DNA of 64,000 nucleotides from NCBI GenBank assembly GCA_031262585.1, contig JAISHK010000001.1, positions 1-64,000 on the forward strand, in the 5' to 3' direction. Positions 11,978 to 18,290 of this stretch are shown here, piece after piece. The stretch's first letter is position 1; each line of letters opens with the position of its first letter. The notes below the pieces were generated by a model that had not been told where the DNA came from, made no database searches, and worked only from the letters and a program-made list of their open reading frames with translations. The position numbers and the translations under genes were made by a program. This DNA is from Endomicrobium sp. (GTDB lineage: Bacteria > Elusimicrobiota > Endomicrobiia > Endomicrobiales > Endomicrobiaceae).

Positions 11978-12131
11978 TTGATTGTATACAATTTGCTGTA
12001 ATTTTTAGATTTAGTTAAGTTTTTTATAAAATTTATAAAAATGTGTGATTTGATTAACAATTTTTGTATTTTATTATAATGGAATTAGTATAATATTTTT
12101 TCTAATTTTTTAATTTAATATATTTATTGTT

Positions 12132-12160
12132 CTGAAATTGAAATTTATATTTTGTATAAT
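12132..12160 (+). promoter_or_regulatory. possible promoter of miaB
   Basis: CTGAAA (12132-12137), a 17-base spacer and TATAAT (12155-12160) lie about 50 bases before the miaB start. The surrounding DNA is so AT-rich that other TATAAT-like hexamers occur nearby, so this is a candidate only. Confidence 0.4.
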
Positions 12161-12210
12161 ACATATCATATTATTAATGATGATATTAATTTAAAATACG
12201 GGATGATTTT

Positions 12211-13467
12211 TTGAACTTTTTGATTAAAACAATTGGTTGTCAGATGAATATATGTGAATCTGAGAAACTTGGCTTTGCACTTTTAGCTTATGGAGCATCA
12301 AAGGCAAGTAGTTTTGTGGCTGCAGATATTATTATACTTAATGCTTGTTGTGTTAGATCTCAAGCAGAGCAGAAGGCTTTTTCTTATCTTGGTAGATTGG
12401 AAGAATTTAAGCTTGAAAAATCTAATGTTAAAATAGTTGTAGTAGGTTGTATGGCAGAAAGATTAGGTACAAAACTTAAGCAACGTTTTAAAAGTGTTGA
12501 TTTAATTATTGGTGCAAAAGAAACTGATAGTATTGCACTAAAAATTGTGAATTTATATGGAAACAATACTTTAAAACGAAAAAAAATTAATGTTGTTTTT
12601 GATGTTGTGAAATATGTAATTGTTATGCGAGGATGTAATAATTATTGTTCATATTGCATAGTGCCTTTTGTAAGAGGGAATGAAAAAAGTTTTAGTGCTA
12701 GAGATATAATAAACGAATGTATTTTAGCTGCAGAAAATGGAACAAAAGAAATAATACTTTTAGGGCAAAATGTAAATTCATATTTGTACAAAAATGTAAA
12801 TTTTACTTTGCTAATTAAAAAAATAGTTTCAATAAAGAATATTGAAAGAGTAAGGTTCATGACAAATCATCCCAAGGACTTAAGTGATGATTTGATAAAT
12901 GTTATGGCGACAGAATCTAAGGTGTGTTCTCATATTCATCTTCCTATGCAGTCCGCGTCAAATAAGATCCTTAAAGCTATGAATAGAAAATATACTTATG
13001 AGCATTATCTTGGATTAATTAGCAAATTAAGAGTTGCTATTCCAGACATAAATATAACAACAGATATTATAGTTGGTTTCCCAGGAGAAACGGAAAAAGA
13101 TTTTGAAGAAACTTTGAAAGCAATTAAAAACATAAGATTTGGTTGGTTATATGTTTTTAAGTATTCACATCGTCCCCGCACAAAAATTGCGGAAATGATT
13201 GATGATGTGACTTTAGTTGAAAAAAAAAGAAGGCATTCCATTATACTTAAAGAATCAAATAAAATTTCTATTGAAATAGCTTCTTCAATGATTGGAAGTT
13301 TACAAACTGTTCTAGTTGAAAAAGTAGATAAAGGCATTATAGAAGCAAGAACAGAAAGTGGTCGTAAGGTATTTATAAATGGTGGGAATGAAAAATATTT
13401 AGGTTTGCAATTTAATGTTTGCATAAAAGAGGCAAAAATAAATTCATTATTTGGTTGTATTGTATGA
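12211..13467 (+). CDS. miaB: tRNA-2-methylthio-N6-dimethylallyladenosine synthase
   Basis: MiaB is a radical SAM methylthiotransferase that converts i6A37 to ms2i6A37 in tRNAs reading UNN codons; miaA, which makes i6A, is also in the window. The N-terminal UPF0004 domain contributes Cys10, Cys46 and Cys80 for the auxiliary [4Fe-4S] cluster. The radical SAM motif is Cys142, Cys146, Cys149 (GCNNYCSYC), and a TRAM domain ends the 418-residue chain. The start is TTG at 12211, chosen because MNFLIKTIGCQMN is the canonical N terminus; GGGATGAT precedes it. Confidence 0.93.
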   Translation: MNFLIKTIGCQMNICESEKLGFALLAYGASKASSFVAADIIILNACCVRSQAEQKAFSYLGRLEEFKLEKSNVKIVVVGCMAERLGTKLKQRFKSVDLIIGAKETDSIALKIVNLYGNNTLKRKKINVVFDVVKYVIVMRGCNNYCSYCIVPFVRGNEKSFSARDIINECILAAENGTKEIILLGQNVNSYLYKNVNFTLLIKKIVSIKNIERVRFMTNHPKDLSDDLINVMATESKVCSHIHLPMQSASNKILKAMNRKYTYEHYLGLISKLRVAIPDINITTDIIVGFPGETEKDFEETLKAIKNIRFGWLYVFKYSHRPRTKIAEMIDDVTLVEKKRRHSIILKESNKISIEIASSMIGSLQTVLVEKVDKGIIEARTESGRKVFINGGNEKYLGLQFNVCIKEAKINSLFGCIV

Positions 13468-13780
13468 AAAATATTGTCCATTGTTTTATCTTTGCAGTTA
13501 ACTTTGTTTGTTAATGCTACTACGAAAAAAGAATCAAATTTAAACTTAGTTATATACAAAAAGTACTGTTGGATTTATGGCATAATTCTAAGATTGTAAT
13601 GAAAACTTCTAGATAGTTTAATTGTTGTGAATTATTCTAGTGTAAATGTAAAACTTAAAGAAATATGATAACTAATCTTGTTTAACTTTAGTTGCTTATA
13701 GTGTCAGAATATGAATGTTAGAACTGATATATAAAAAATTTAATATTAGTAAAAGATATCTCAAATACCTTTTGAAGAAA
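13464..13780 (+). pseudogene. decayed gene, possibly a DUF4139-type exported protein
   Basis: An ATG overlapping the miaB stop (ATGA) opens a signal-peptide-like start (MKNIVHCFIFAV) that stops after 16 codons. Other frames continue with NATTKKESNLNLVIYKK and VNYSSVNVKLKE, which resemble the opening strands of DUF4139 proteins. No frame stays open. This looks like a gene broken by several indels; the family guess is weak. Confidence 0.3.
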
Positions 13781-13791
13781 CAAAATGATAT

Positions 13792-13820
13792 TTGAATCTG
13801 TAGTGTTTATATTTTATAAT
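13792..13820 (+). promoter_or_regulatory. sigma-70 type promoter of mutS
   Basis: TTGAAT (13792-13797), a 17-base spacer and TATAAT (13815-13820) form a near-consensus promoter. The transcription start would fall near 13827, very close to every candidate mutS start codon. The mRNA leader would therefore be extremely short. Confidence 0.65.
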
Positions 13821-13831
13821 GGAGTGAAAAA

Positions 13832-16267
13832 ATTAAACAGTCTCATAAAAAATTAACACCATTAATGCAACAATATTGGGATATTAAAATTAAATATCCC
13901 GGCATGATATTGTTTTTTCGTTTAGGAGATTTTTATGAAATGTTTGAGGAAGATGCAATAAAAGCAGCTCCTATTCTTGATGTTGTATTAACGCAAAGAT
14001 CAGGAAAGTCTATGTGTGGCGTACCTTATCATTCTGTAAATTCATACATTAGAAAACTTATAATTAAAGGTTTTAAAGTTGCTATTTGTGAACAACTTGA
14101 AGAATCTGGATCATCTAGAGGTATTGTAAAGCGAGGTGTTACAAATGTAATAACTCCTGGAACTATTTTAGATGATGTTCTTTTGGAGTCAAAAAAAAAT
14201 AATTTTCTAGGGGCTATTATTTTAAATGAAATTTCATCATCTGTAGTTTATGCTATGGCTGATATATCCACTGGCGAATTTTTTACTTCTGAAACAACAT
14301 TAAAATATATCGATACAGAAATATCAAAGTATAGTCCTGGGGAAATTATAATATCTTCAAGTAATATGAAAAATCAATCTGTAGCTAATTTTATATCTAC
14401 TTTTAAAATTCCAGTGTCAAATGTAAATGATTCTTTTTTTGAACTTGGAAACGCAGAAAAAACAATAGAAGAGTTTTTTGATGTTAATGCTGTAAAAAAC
14501 TTTGAATTTGACAAAAAAGAAATGATTTGTGTTTGCGGGGCCTTACTCTCTTATATAAAAGAAATGCAACCTCAGAGTCCTGGTATATTTTTCACTATAA
14601 AGTATATAAAAAACTCAGATTTTATGTGTTTGGATTCCGTAGCAATAAAAAATTTAGAGCTTCTTAATTCTATATCGAGTGGCAAATCTGAAAATTCGTT
14701 ACTTTCAATCATTGATTCAACGAAAACTTCTATGGGAGCAAGAACTTTGCGTGGATGGCTTATAAAGCCTTTGTTAGATGTTTCAAAGATTATCAATAGG
14801 CAAAATATTGTGAAGCTTTTTATAAAACATTCTGATGTACGAAAAGATATAATAGAAAAATTTAGGACAATTTCGGATATTGAAAGGATAGTTGCAAGAA
14901 TTTCATCAGGTACTGCAAGTCCCAAAGACTTGATGGCATTGAAATATTCACTAGAAGTAATAAATGTTATTTCTAAAATTATAAAATCTGCAAAAGATTT
15001 TGAATTTGATATTCCTGAAAATAGACACGTGATAGATAAAATTTCTTCCAATTTAGTTGACGAACCTCCAACATCTTTAAAAGATGGTAATGTTATAAGA
15101 AATGGAGTTAATGCAGAGCTTGATGAACTGAGAAAAATCTTATTTGATGTAAAAAAATATATATCAAATTTAGAAGCTAAGGAACGAGTGACAACTGGTA
15201 TAAGTAATCTTAAAATAGGTTATACTTCAGTGTTTGGGTATTATATAGAAATAAGTAAGTCTAATGTAGCATTGACACCAAAAAATTATATCCGTAAGCA
15301 AACTGTGGTAACAGGAGAAAGATATGTTACAGAAGAATTAAAAACTCTTGAAGAAAAGATATTATCTGCCCAAGAGAAAACTTTAAGACTTGAAAGTGAT
15401 ATATTTAATATCTTAAAACGAGAGATAACTCTTTTTATAGCAGATATTTTAAAAACTTCTCGTATTATTGCTGAGATTGATATTTTTTGCGTATTTGCCA
15501 AAGATGCCTTGGAATATAATTATATTTGTCCAATAATTTCAAATAGCAAGGAACTTTATATTAAAGATGGTAGGCATCCTGTAATAGAAAGAATACTAAA
15601 GCCTGGAGAATTTACTACGAATGATATTTCACTTGATGAAAAATCAAGAATAATGATATTAACTGGTCCTAATATGTCTGGAAAATCTACCTATTTAAGA
15701 CAAACTGCTCTTATTGTGATAATGAGTCAGATTGGTTCTTTTGTTCCGGCACAAGAAGCTCGTATAGGTATCATTGATAAAATATTTACAAGAATAGGTG
15801 CAGGAGATAATCTTACAGGTGGCGCATCGACTTTTATGGTTGAAATGAGTGAAACTGCAAATATTTTGAACCAATATACCGATAGAAGTCTTATTATCTT
15901 AGATGAAGTTGGTAGAGGAACCTCTACTTATGATGGCATGTCCATTGCATGGGCAATAATAGAATTTTTGGCAGATACAAAAAGAAAAGTTAATTTTGGT
16001 TCAAAAATACTTTTTGCTACTCATTATTTTGAGTTAACTGACATTTCGAATACTTTTAATGGTGTTGTAAATTGTAGTGTTGAAGTTAAAGAGTGGAAAG
16101 GTGATGTCATATTTTTACATAAAATAGTGAAAGGCAATGCTAATAAATCATATGGAATACATGTAGCAAAAATTGCTGGATTACCTCGTCAAGTAATAGA
16201 ACGAGCGTATGAAATTTTAAATAAGCTTGAAATAAATTCAATTAATACAAATAAACGAATTAAATAG
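13832..16267 (+). CDS. mutS: DNA mismatch recognition ATPase MutS
   Basis: MutS binds mismatches and signals to MutL. Present are the mismatch-wedge Phe-x-Glu in GDFYEMF, clamp and core domains, Walker A TGPNMSGKST (about 600 codons past the ATG at 13865), LDEVGRGTSTYDG and FATHYFELT. The start is uncertain. Family homology (KLTPLMQQY) begins before the first ATG at 13865. The upstream codons are open only to 13820, and the only plausible in-frame start there is ATT at 13832, seven bases after GGAG. A GTG at 13824 would come into frame only with one extra A in the A6 run. From ATG the protein is 800 residues. Confidence 0.9.
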   Translation: MKQSHKKLTPLMQQYWDIKIKYPGMILFFRLGDFYEMFEEDAIKAAPILDVVLTQRSGKSMCGVPYHSVNSYIRKLIIKGFKVAICEQLEESGSSRGIVKRGVTNVITPGTILDDVLLESKKNNFLGAIILNEISSSVVYAMADISTGEFFTSETTLKYIDTEISKYSPGEIIISSSNMKNQSVANFISTFKIPVSNVNDSFFELGNAEKTIEEFFDVNAVKNFEFDKKEMICVCGALLSYIKEMQPQSPGIFFTIKYIKNSDFMCLDSVAIKNLELLNSISSGKSENSLLSIIDSTKTSMGARTLRGWLIKPLLDVSKIINRQNIVKLFIKHSDVRKDIIEKFRTISDIERIVARISSGTASPKDLMALKYSLEVINVISKIIKSAKDFEFDIPENRHVIDKISSNLVDEPPTSLKDGNVIRNGVNAELDELRKILFDVKKYISNLEAKERVTTGISNLKIGYTSVFGYYIEISKSNVALTPKNYIRKQTVVTGERYVTEELKTLEEKILSAQEKTLRLESDIFNILKREITLFIADILKTSRIIAEIDIFCVFAKDALEYNYICPIISNSKELYIKDGRHPVIERILKPGEFTTNDISLDEKSRIMILTGPNMSGKSTYLRQTALIVIMSQIGSFVPAQEARIGIIDKIFTRIGAGDNLTGGASTFMVEMSETANILNQYTDRSLIILDEVGRGTSTYDGMSIAWAIIEFLADTKRKVNFGSKILFATHYFELTDISNTFNGVVNCSVEVKEWKGDVIFLHKIVKGNANKSYGIHVAKIAGLPRQVIERAYEILNKLEINSINTNKRIK

Positions 16268-16514
16268 CAACGTAATAAATTTGTTATTAAAGCTAGTTTT
16301 TCAAGTCTTTAAATTTTAGCGAATTTTAAAAATATTAATATAAATTTTTAATGTTTATAGAGATTGGATTAATATGATAAGAAAATGAAAAAAGACAAAT
16401 ACGTGTAGAAAAGTATTGTGTTTTGAAATTTAATAGTATTGTATTAAATAATTTTAATTTCGCTTAAATTTTAAAATATAAAATATTTATGTAATTTGTT
16501 GAAGAGAATTGAAA

Positions 16515-18290
16515 ATGTCGATAATAAACATCCTATCTCAAGAAACTGTTAATAAAATAGCTGCGGGTGAAGTTGTAGAGCGACCGCTAAATGTAATTAA
16601 AGAACTTGTAGAGAATTCTTTAGATGCTTTTGCAGTTTTAATAACTATAGAAATAGAAACATCTGGAAAAAAGTTAATAAGAATATATGATAATGGATTA
16701 GGTATGGATAAAAAAGATTTAGAGCTTTCTATATTAAGACATACTACAAGTAAAATAAAAAATTTTAATGATCTATCACATATACGTTCTTTAGGTTTTA
16801 GAGGTGAAGCTCTTGCTTCTATAGCAGCTGTTTCAAGATTTGAGATAAAAACTAAAAAAAAGGAAGAAGCTATCGGATGGAAACTTTCAGCTGAAGGCGG
16901 AAAAGATGTTAAGGTTACCCCTTGGTCTGGTTCTCAAGGTACAATAGTAGAAATTAAAGATTTGTTTTTTAATACGCCAGCAAGACAAAAATTCTTAAAA
17001 AGTGATTCTATTGAGAGCGCAAGAATTATAAATTTTCTTGAAGAAATTGCTCTTGCTAATAATGATATAGCTTTTAAATTAGTATCTAAAGATAAAGTTA
17101 TTTTTTCTACTTTTAGAACTGATAGTAAAATTGACAGAATCTCTGATATTTTGGGAAGAGATTTTTCTAAAACAATAAGAAATATAAAGATTGAACATCC
17201 TAAAGTTTTTTTGGATGTTTATTTTACAGGTAGAGATGATTGTTTGTCTAATAAAAAATGTCAATATCTTTTTGTAAATTCAAGAGCTGTAAATTATCCT
17301 AAGTGGCTTGTATATTGCATTTATCAAGCATATAAAGAATTAATTCCACATGGTAAACATCCTGGGATTTTAATTTACATAATCATAGAGCCTTCAGAAA
17401 TTGACGTTAATATGCATCCTACTAAAAGAGAAGTTAGATTTATAAATGAAAACGGTATTTATGAAATTGTTTATAAATCTTTAAAAAATGCTCTTGCTTC
17501 ACACCAATGTTCAGAAATTTGTATAAATTCTCAGATATCAGATAAATTATTATCAAACTACACAACAAGTTATATAAAAGCTGAAAAACATCTGCAACCT
17601 ATTGTTTATGTAAAAGAACCTAAGTCAAAAAATTATAATCGTTCAAAACAAACATATGATGTAGATGCATATTCTAGTGTTTTTACGAAACAAGATGAAT
17701 TTATATCTAGAAAATTTAATGATAATATTAAAGTTTTGGGACAAGTCTTCAAAACTTATATTATCGTCGAAAACAGAAGTAATTTATATATTTTTGACCA
17801 ACATGCTTCTGCAGAAAGAATTAGATATGAACTTTATCTTGATCAGGCAAAAGATCAATTAATAAAGATTCAACAAATGCTTATGCCTGAAACTTTCAAT
17901 CTTCCTTTAAGTCTTTCAGAACTTCTTAAGGCAAATATAAGTATTTTTAATAAGCTTGGGATAAGTATTGAAGAATTCGGTCAAAATTCATTTAGAATAA
18001 CTGCATATCCGGCATTACTTGGAAATGTAACAATAGCACATATAGTTAAAACTATAATTGTAGATATTTCAGATGATAAAAACGCTGAAATCGAGCAGAA
18101 GAGAGAAAAAATTATTCGGTTAGCATGTAAGGCTAGCATTAGAGCAGGAGACAGTCTTTCTTTTTTTGAAGCTAAAAAACTTGTTAATGATCTTTGTAAA
18201 TGTAAATATCCTTTTACTTGTCCACATGGTAGACCAACTGCATATAAAATTTCATTAAATGAGCTTGAGAAATTTTTTAAACGTAAGTAA
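16515..18290 (+). CDS. mutL: DNA mismatch repair protein MutL
   Basis: MutL is a GHKL ATPase that links MutS to downstream repair. The N-terminal ATPase motifs are ENSLDA, DNGLGM and GFRGEALASIA. The C-terminal half carries DQHASAER with the following Glu (the DQHAx2Ex4E metal motif), ACKASIRAG and CPHGRP, so this is the endonuclease-active type found in bacteria without MutH. I chose ATG 16515 (MSIINILSQETVNKIAAGEV) over the in-frame TTG at 16509. It is separated from mutS by a 240-bp gap and runs into miaA 11 bp downstream. Confidence 0.93.
   Translation: MSIINILSQETVNKIAAGEVVERPLNVIKELVENSLDAFAVLITIEIETSGKKLIRIYDNGLGMDKKDLELSILRHTTSKIKNFNDLSHIRSLGFRGEALASIAAVSRFEIKTKKKEEAIGWKLSAEGGKDVKVTPWSGSQGTIVEIKDLFFNTPARQKFLKSDSIESARIINFLEEIALANNDIAFKLVSKDKVIFSTFRTDSKIDRISDILGRDFSKTIRNIKIEHPKVFLDVYFTGRDDCLSNKKCQYLFVNSRAVNYPKWLVYCIYQAYKELIPHGKHPGILIYIIIEPSEIDVNMHPTKREVRFINENGIYEIVYKSLKNALASHQCSEICINSQISDKLLSNYTTSYIKAEKHLQPIVYVKEPKSKNYNRSKQTYDVDAYSSVFTKQDEFISRKFNDNIKVLGQVFKTYIIVENRSNLYIFDQHASAERIRYELYLDQAKDQLIKIQQMLMPETFNLPLSLSELLKANISIFNKLGISIEEFGQNSFRITAYPALLGNVTIAHIVKTIIVDISDDKNAEIEQKREKIIRLACKASIRAGDSLSFFEAKKLVNDLCKCKYPFTCPHGRPTAYKISLNELEKFFKRK

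Follow-up and report, generated by a model that had tools for sequence, protein, structure and literature searches.

An AUU codon as the very likely start of mutS in an Endomicrobium genome, with AUU, AUA or AUC at the same place in relatives

Introduction

To our knowledge, few bacterial genes start with AUU, AUA or AUC (together, AUH). One of them is pcnB of Escherichia coli, which reportedly starts with an inefficient AUU that limits its translation. For infC, the gene of initiation factor IF3, the available parts of two papers give AUU in E. coli, AUC in Streptomyces and AUA in Staphylococcus aureus (PMC5472188, PMC13009471), and the first of them also reports experimental proof that the GTC start of sigR in Streptomyces is repressed by IF3 (PMC5472188, in part). 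In S. aureus, ccpN (AUA) and cvfC1 (AUU) are described as giving ~10% of the expression of an AUG reporter in poor medium (PMC13009471, in part).

Here we analyse the start of mutS in a window (that is, the whole stretch of DNA under study, 64,000 nucleotides from contig JAISHK010000001.1) of an Endomicrobium genome. The family to which it belongs, the Endomicrobiaceae, consists of gut bacteria, including symbionts of termite-gut protists. The genome comprises 936,649 bases in 11 contigs, and the nearest named genome is a metagenome-assembled genome of Candidatus Endomicrobiellum cubanum (L061), whose genus is described as endosymbionts of termite gut flagellates (PMC11257099, in part). Our literature search found no report of a mutS gene with an AUU, ATT or other non-AUG start, of mismatch repair linked to IF3 or of the mutS start in Endomicrobium; the main texts of PMC11257099 and PMC8809381, as far as they were available, do not contain the word mutS.

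Results

In the window, mutS occupies positions 13,832–16,267 of the forward strand (811 codons counted from ATT), on which all features named below also lie, and encodes a full MutS1 (TIGR01070, 889.1 bits against a cut-off of 641.7) with Pfam MutS domains I–V (PF01624, PF05188, PF05192, PF05190 and PF00488). Its frame is closed upstream by a TAA (13,817–13,819), after which it reads TGG AGT GAA AAA ATT AAA CAG TCT CAT AAA AAA TTA ACA CCA TTA ATG, with no ATG, GTG or TTG between this stop and the KLTPLM motif, whose M is the first ATG (13,865–13,867). The proposed start codon, ATT (13,832–13,834), lies 7 nt downstream of GGAG, the core of a Shine–Dalgarno (SD) sequence (13,821–13,824; duplex energy −6.5), and a GTG (13,824–13,826) followed by six A (13,827–13,832) stands one base out of the mutS frame. 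RNA structure at the start showed nothing notable (z +0.74 for 51 nt and −1.15 for 71 nt). An earlier sequence-only reading had given the coordinates of these codons, of GGAG and of the A-run, all of which proved correct when the sequence was read again, and had offered three explanations (an ATT start, a leaderless start and poly(A) slippage); comparison with relatives backed the first and spoke against the other two. Alignment of the upstream region with mutS of relatives, one of the checks which that reading had suggested, recovered the same layout in 21 other genomes, and a sequencing error is thereby excluded as the source of the whole pattern. Since 22 genomes of five genera have ATT, ATA or ATC at the corresponding position and at a proper distance from an SD, AUU at 13,832 is very likely the start of mutS.

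Within the genus, mutS was found in 31 of 41 genomes (none was found in the other 10), and 28 start regions were read after fragments in three genomes (G048, G017 and G053) had been left out. In 16 of the 28, the sole well-placed start is ATT (8), ATA (6) or ATC (2), 11 codons before the M of TPLM; ten others have ATG at other offsets, with a weak SD or none, and two (L148 and L012), which have ATT plus a GTG or ATG ~1 nt after the SD, were counted as ambiguous. The GTG of L148 (G044), two codons before ATT and 1 nt after GGGAG, may mark an intermediate on the way to a canonical start. No canonical codon occurs up to the upstream stop in 14 of the 16 AUH loci; the other two have canonical codons farther upstream (ATG at −17 in L002 and TTG at −6 in L152). 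These two, together with the fact that the observed variants (ATT, ATA and ATC) are exactly the codons for isoleucine, would suit a conserved internal isoleucine codon with the true start farther upstream. However, an in-frame stop lies two codons before AUH in L145 (TAA) and five codons before it in nine further loci, with only the codons of the SD in between, which refutes an internal isoleucine for those ten genomes unless a frameshift is used and leaves this reading extremely improbable overall.

The same arrangement extends to other genera of the family, of which we sampled 20 loci and read 19, from ten genera (L267 could not be anchored). Six of these (L250, L252 and L253 in g20, L255 in g21, L256 in g23 and L268 in g24) have ATT at GGAG-N7 with no canonical codon upstream, and the remaining 13 use ATG. 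As the stretch from ATT to TPLM is 14 or 15 codons in these genera, against 11 in the genus, conservation concerns the interval between SD and ATT and does not extend to that between ATT and the motif. Among mutS loci from outside the family, a canonical codon is present between −60 and −3 in all 81 that were anchored (93 collected, 12 unanchored and dropped). The trait is evidently not essential, given that ten of the 28 loci in the genus and 13 of the 19 elsewhere in the family use ATG; the AUU start of mutS is nevertheless very likely both real and old.

Codons between AUH and the first methionine vary as protein-coding sequence does. We compared 20 rows with ATH at this place (that is, the 16 AUH loci, the ambiguous L148 and L012, and two that we assign elsewhere to the ATG group, L151 and L153) and found differences of 0.28, 0.16 and 0.48 at the first, second and third positions of codons 2–11, and of 0.17, 0.00 and 0.44 in the four codons leading up to the methionine of TPLM. 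That MutS homology precedes the first ATG, as had been noted from the sequence, is borne out by LTPL, which aligns where homology to E. coli MutS begins (domain I of the solved MutS). A start at ATG 13,865 with the preceding codons untranslated has in its favour that no canonical codon comes earlier in the frame. It is opposed by third-position variation and by the homology just before it, as well as by the lack of an SD (energy +2.0) and by the ATG relatives, which initiate upstream of that methionine; we regard it as very unlikely.

The protein behind the AUU start is under purifying selection, on the evidence of dN/dS values of 0.07–0.21 in 11 pairwise comparisons, including one between two ATG genomes. 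Retention of MutS is not universal, since mutS of L011 and L152 (G013 and G050) contains one in-frame stop each. In G017 (L155), only N-terminal pieces of the gene were found, and the mismatch-repair system of some symbionts, namely these three, may be in decay.

Start codon and SD strength go together. The 3′ end of 16S rRNA is normal, CACCTCCTTT, in two members of the genus (L226 and L227; the window genome has only fragments of its own 16S), and an unusual 16S tail was therefore discarded as an explanation. All 22 AUH-only starts have SD duplex energies between −6.0 and −12.1, a value of −6 being reached by 29–33% of 195 confident canonical starts and by 4.7% of random positions in three genomes of the genus, and by none of the 23 ATG starts of mutS in the family (best, −5.7). 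The SD of mutS is hence strong where the codon is weak, and weak where the codon is strong; compensation of this kind by the SD has been reported in general for GUG and UUG starts (PMC5622118, in part). Contrasts on the tree all point in the same direction (two independent ones on well-supported branches and seven on all branches), which is too few for the association to be significant.

The SD also bears on where the transcript begins. The sequence-only reading had seen a near-perfect promoter (TTGAAT-17-TATAAT, 13,792–13,820) from which the mRNA would be leaderless or start near 13,827, possibly leaving GGAG outside it. The match is 10 of 12, which favours such a start; the description was nevertheless overstated, because sites of this kind are no commoner than chance predicts in DNA so rich in A+T (36 in positions 12,000–17,000 against 31.0, sd 5.3, in shuffled sequence). 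Conservation of GGAG-N7-ATH in five genera, and of the SD in 22 genomes, points to the SD being needed in the mRNA, and in many relatives mutS closely follows or overlaps the gene upstream and is probably co-transcribed with it. These observations argue against a leaderless mutS, which seems to us improbable.

Slippage on the six A, which would join GTG 13,824 to the mutS frame one base away, has still less to recommend it. The GTG overlaps GGAG and is a valine codon in the decayed reading frame of the upstream gene, and slippage is unnecessary in the other 21 AUH genomes, none of which has a comparable joined start. The combination by which programmed slippage is recognized (that is, a usable upstream start and a conserved frame-joining A-run) is not found at mutS, and we give this option, also raised from the sequence, next to no probability.

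The gene upstream suggests how the AUU may have come about. Between miaB and mutS, the window contains a decayed gene for an SLT-type lytic transglycosylase (13,422–13,850, in pieces in several frames), which precedes mutS in relatives (PF01464) and is intact in many of them. The miaB gene (12,211–13,467) itself starts with TTG, as by alignment it probably does in G023 and G056. The SLT gene ends 25–37 nt inside mutS in nine genomes and 4–8 nt inside it in a five-member clade with ATA. In the SLT frame of the nine, ATT AAA reads TTA and ATG AAA would read TGA; as AUG followed by A would thus create a UGA stop in the overlapping gene, AUU may have arisen there, at a time when mutS began within the 3′-terminal part of the SLT gene, and it was kept after the overlap was lost, including in the window genome. 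The overlap also weakens the case for the AUU start somewhat, in that the region of these nine relatives encodes SLT protein as well, which can itself conserve GGAG and ATT.

From the same overlap it can be argued that AUU is used but is a tolerated relic, forced on mutS where AUG was forbidden and persisting by drift in small symbiont populations with no regulatory role. In keeping with this, many members of the genus have reduced genomes and mutS is broken in some. Yet the overlap alone does not explain persistence, because AUH with a strong SD remains where the overlap is gone (L001, L145, L011, L149, L150 and L152); it is also found in the ATA clade with its short overlap and in larger genomes of other genera. 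Moreover, the third base has moved among T, A and C (at least four changes of codon type among the AUH rows) and never to G there. We regard the relic as a serious possibility, although the balance tilts against it.

We screened 481 ortholog pairs among the window genome (of whose 937 kb the screen covered 632 kb), G056 and G023. It looked for non-canonical codons that align, have SD energies of −6 or below in both members and have no shared canonical codon nearby; a non-canonical start would escape it if both members also had a canonical codon next to that start. Of 35 matches, 31 lie at codon index 26 or later and were read as internal, and four lie at N-termini (mutS twice and infC twice), making mutS and infC the only genes in the screen with an aligned non-canonical codon behind a strong SD at the N-terminus. 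Looser screens (in the enlarged form, 839 open reading frames, with 68 listed and 27 interior fragments skipped) flagged many frames in which homology merely reaches past the ATG, by a few codons, into its SD region; among intact genes, mutS alone stood out on reading, in all three genomes. Separately, a release-factor-like frame without a canonical codon at its beginning was seen at G056:C1:487653-488700, which we take to be possibly prfB with its usual programmed frameshift.

In the genus, the conserved start of infC is GTC (19), GTA (6) or ATA (1, the window genome) in 26 anchored loci of 30, with SD energies of −8.3 to −12.4. No canonical codon occurs up to the stop in five of the 26 (L041, L043, L045, L051 and L058); the start is less certain in most others, because a canonical codon lies upstream before the stop. 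Other genera of the family have GTC or ATA in most rows read (five rows, of f8, have ATG), so that the apparent start of infC throughout the family is GTC, GTA or ATA with a strong SD before it (L031–L060 and L231–L249). The ATA of the window genome stands where most relatives have GTC.

As for the initiation machinery, all three tRNA-Met genes recognized (ARAGORN, 30 of 42 tRNA places) have the anticodon CAT, and an altered initiator anticodon was rejected on these grounds. The initiator tRNA (L213, G000:C4, at ~97.4 kb; L312–L324) has the anticodon stem TCAGG-CTCATAA-CCTGA, in which A:U replaces the first of the three G:C pairs (presumably A29:U41). The sequence CAGGCTCATAA was present in 13 of 14 genomes matched (15 searched, from the family and another order), and the stem does not explain the AUU trait, because it also occurs in genera whose mutS starts with ATG; the literature on initiator-tRNA variants yielded nothing useful. 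IF3 of the window genome has Tyr and Arg aligned with Tyr75 and Arg99 of E. coli IF3, which we take to be residues with a role in fidelity.

Discussion

We think it likely, with good confidence, that mutS is translated from AUU 13,832 with the help of the strong SD 7 bases upstream; the most likely mechanism is a weak start that IF3 would discriminate against and that would give a low output of MutS. AUU would be read by fMet-tRNA, inefficiently, as IF3 rejects pairings other than those with AUG, GUG and UUG, and the strong SD would offset this weakness in part. Given a start that is both weak and rejected by IF3, MutS would be made at a low rate; as with infC, less IF3 activity per 30S subunit should mean a higher rate. 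By this analogy, we infer control of mutS by IF3: the AUU start probably keeps MutS scarce and might tie mutS to a translation factor. The available part of one study reports that excess IF3 lowers re-initiation, and less so with an SD (PMC2268962), an effect that matters for those relatives in which the SLT gene overlaps mutS.

An attractive consequence of the AUU start would be a link between IF3 and mutation rate. In its broadest form, start-codon discrimination by IF3 would set the level of MutS in the Endomicrobiaceae, infC and mutS would be under one translational control, and the amount of IF3 per ribosome would govern both how fast mutations arise and how strongly recombination with foreign DNA is hindered; we offer this as a tentative proposal that we consider unlikely to hold as a whole. 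Were it to hold, the retention of mutS under an AUH start in five genera would couple the supply of mutations to the fidelity of initiation. These symbionts are described as keeping and expressing competence genes (PMC8809381, in part), and scarce MutS would be expected to ease recombination with diverged DNA, which may connect the two. There is also a practical side, in that gene finders limited to ATG, GTG and TTG would cut mutS at ATG 13,865.

The features by which non-canonical starts can be recognized in sequence (that is, absence of a usable canonical start, here in 14 of 16 loci, a proper distance from the SD and conservation across species) are all found at mutS, and the comparison suggests that it is a further case of the conserved non-canonical starts already known from infC, pcnB, sigR and ccpN. 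It resembles infC, which in the Endomicrobiaceae has its own non-canonical start behind a strong SD; however, infC regulates itself, whereas mutS serves DNA repair and is not part of the translation machinery. Like sigR, it is a gene of a different pathway whose non-canonical start is conserved and was missed by annotation, although the GUC of sigR has experimental proof and the AUH of mutS is proposed from comparison. Like ccpN and cvfC1, it combines a conserved AUH start with a strong extended SD, but those are other genes in another phylum and have ribosome footprints, whereas the start of mutS has been read from sequence. To pcnB, finally, the proposed mutS start is alike in that an inefficient AUU would limit translation.
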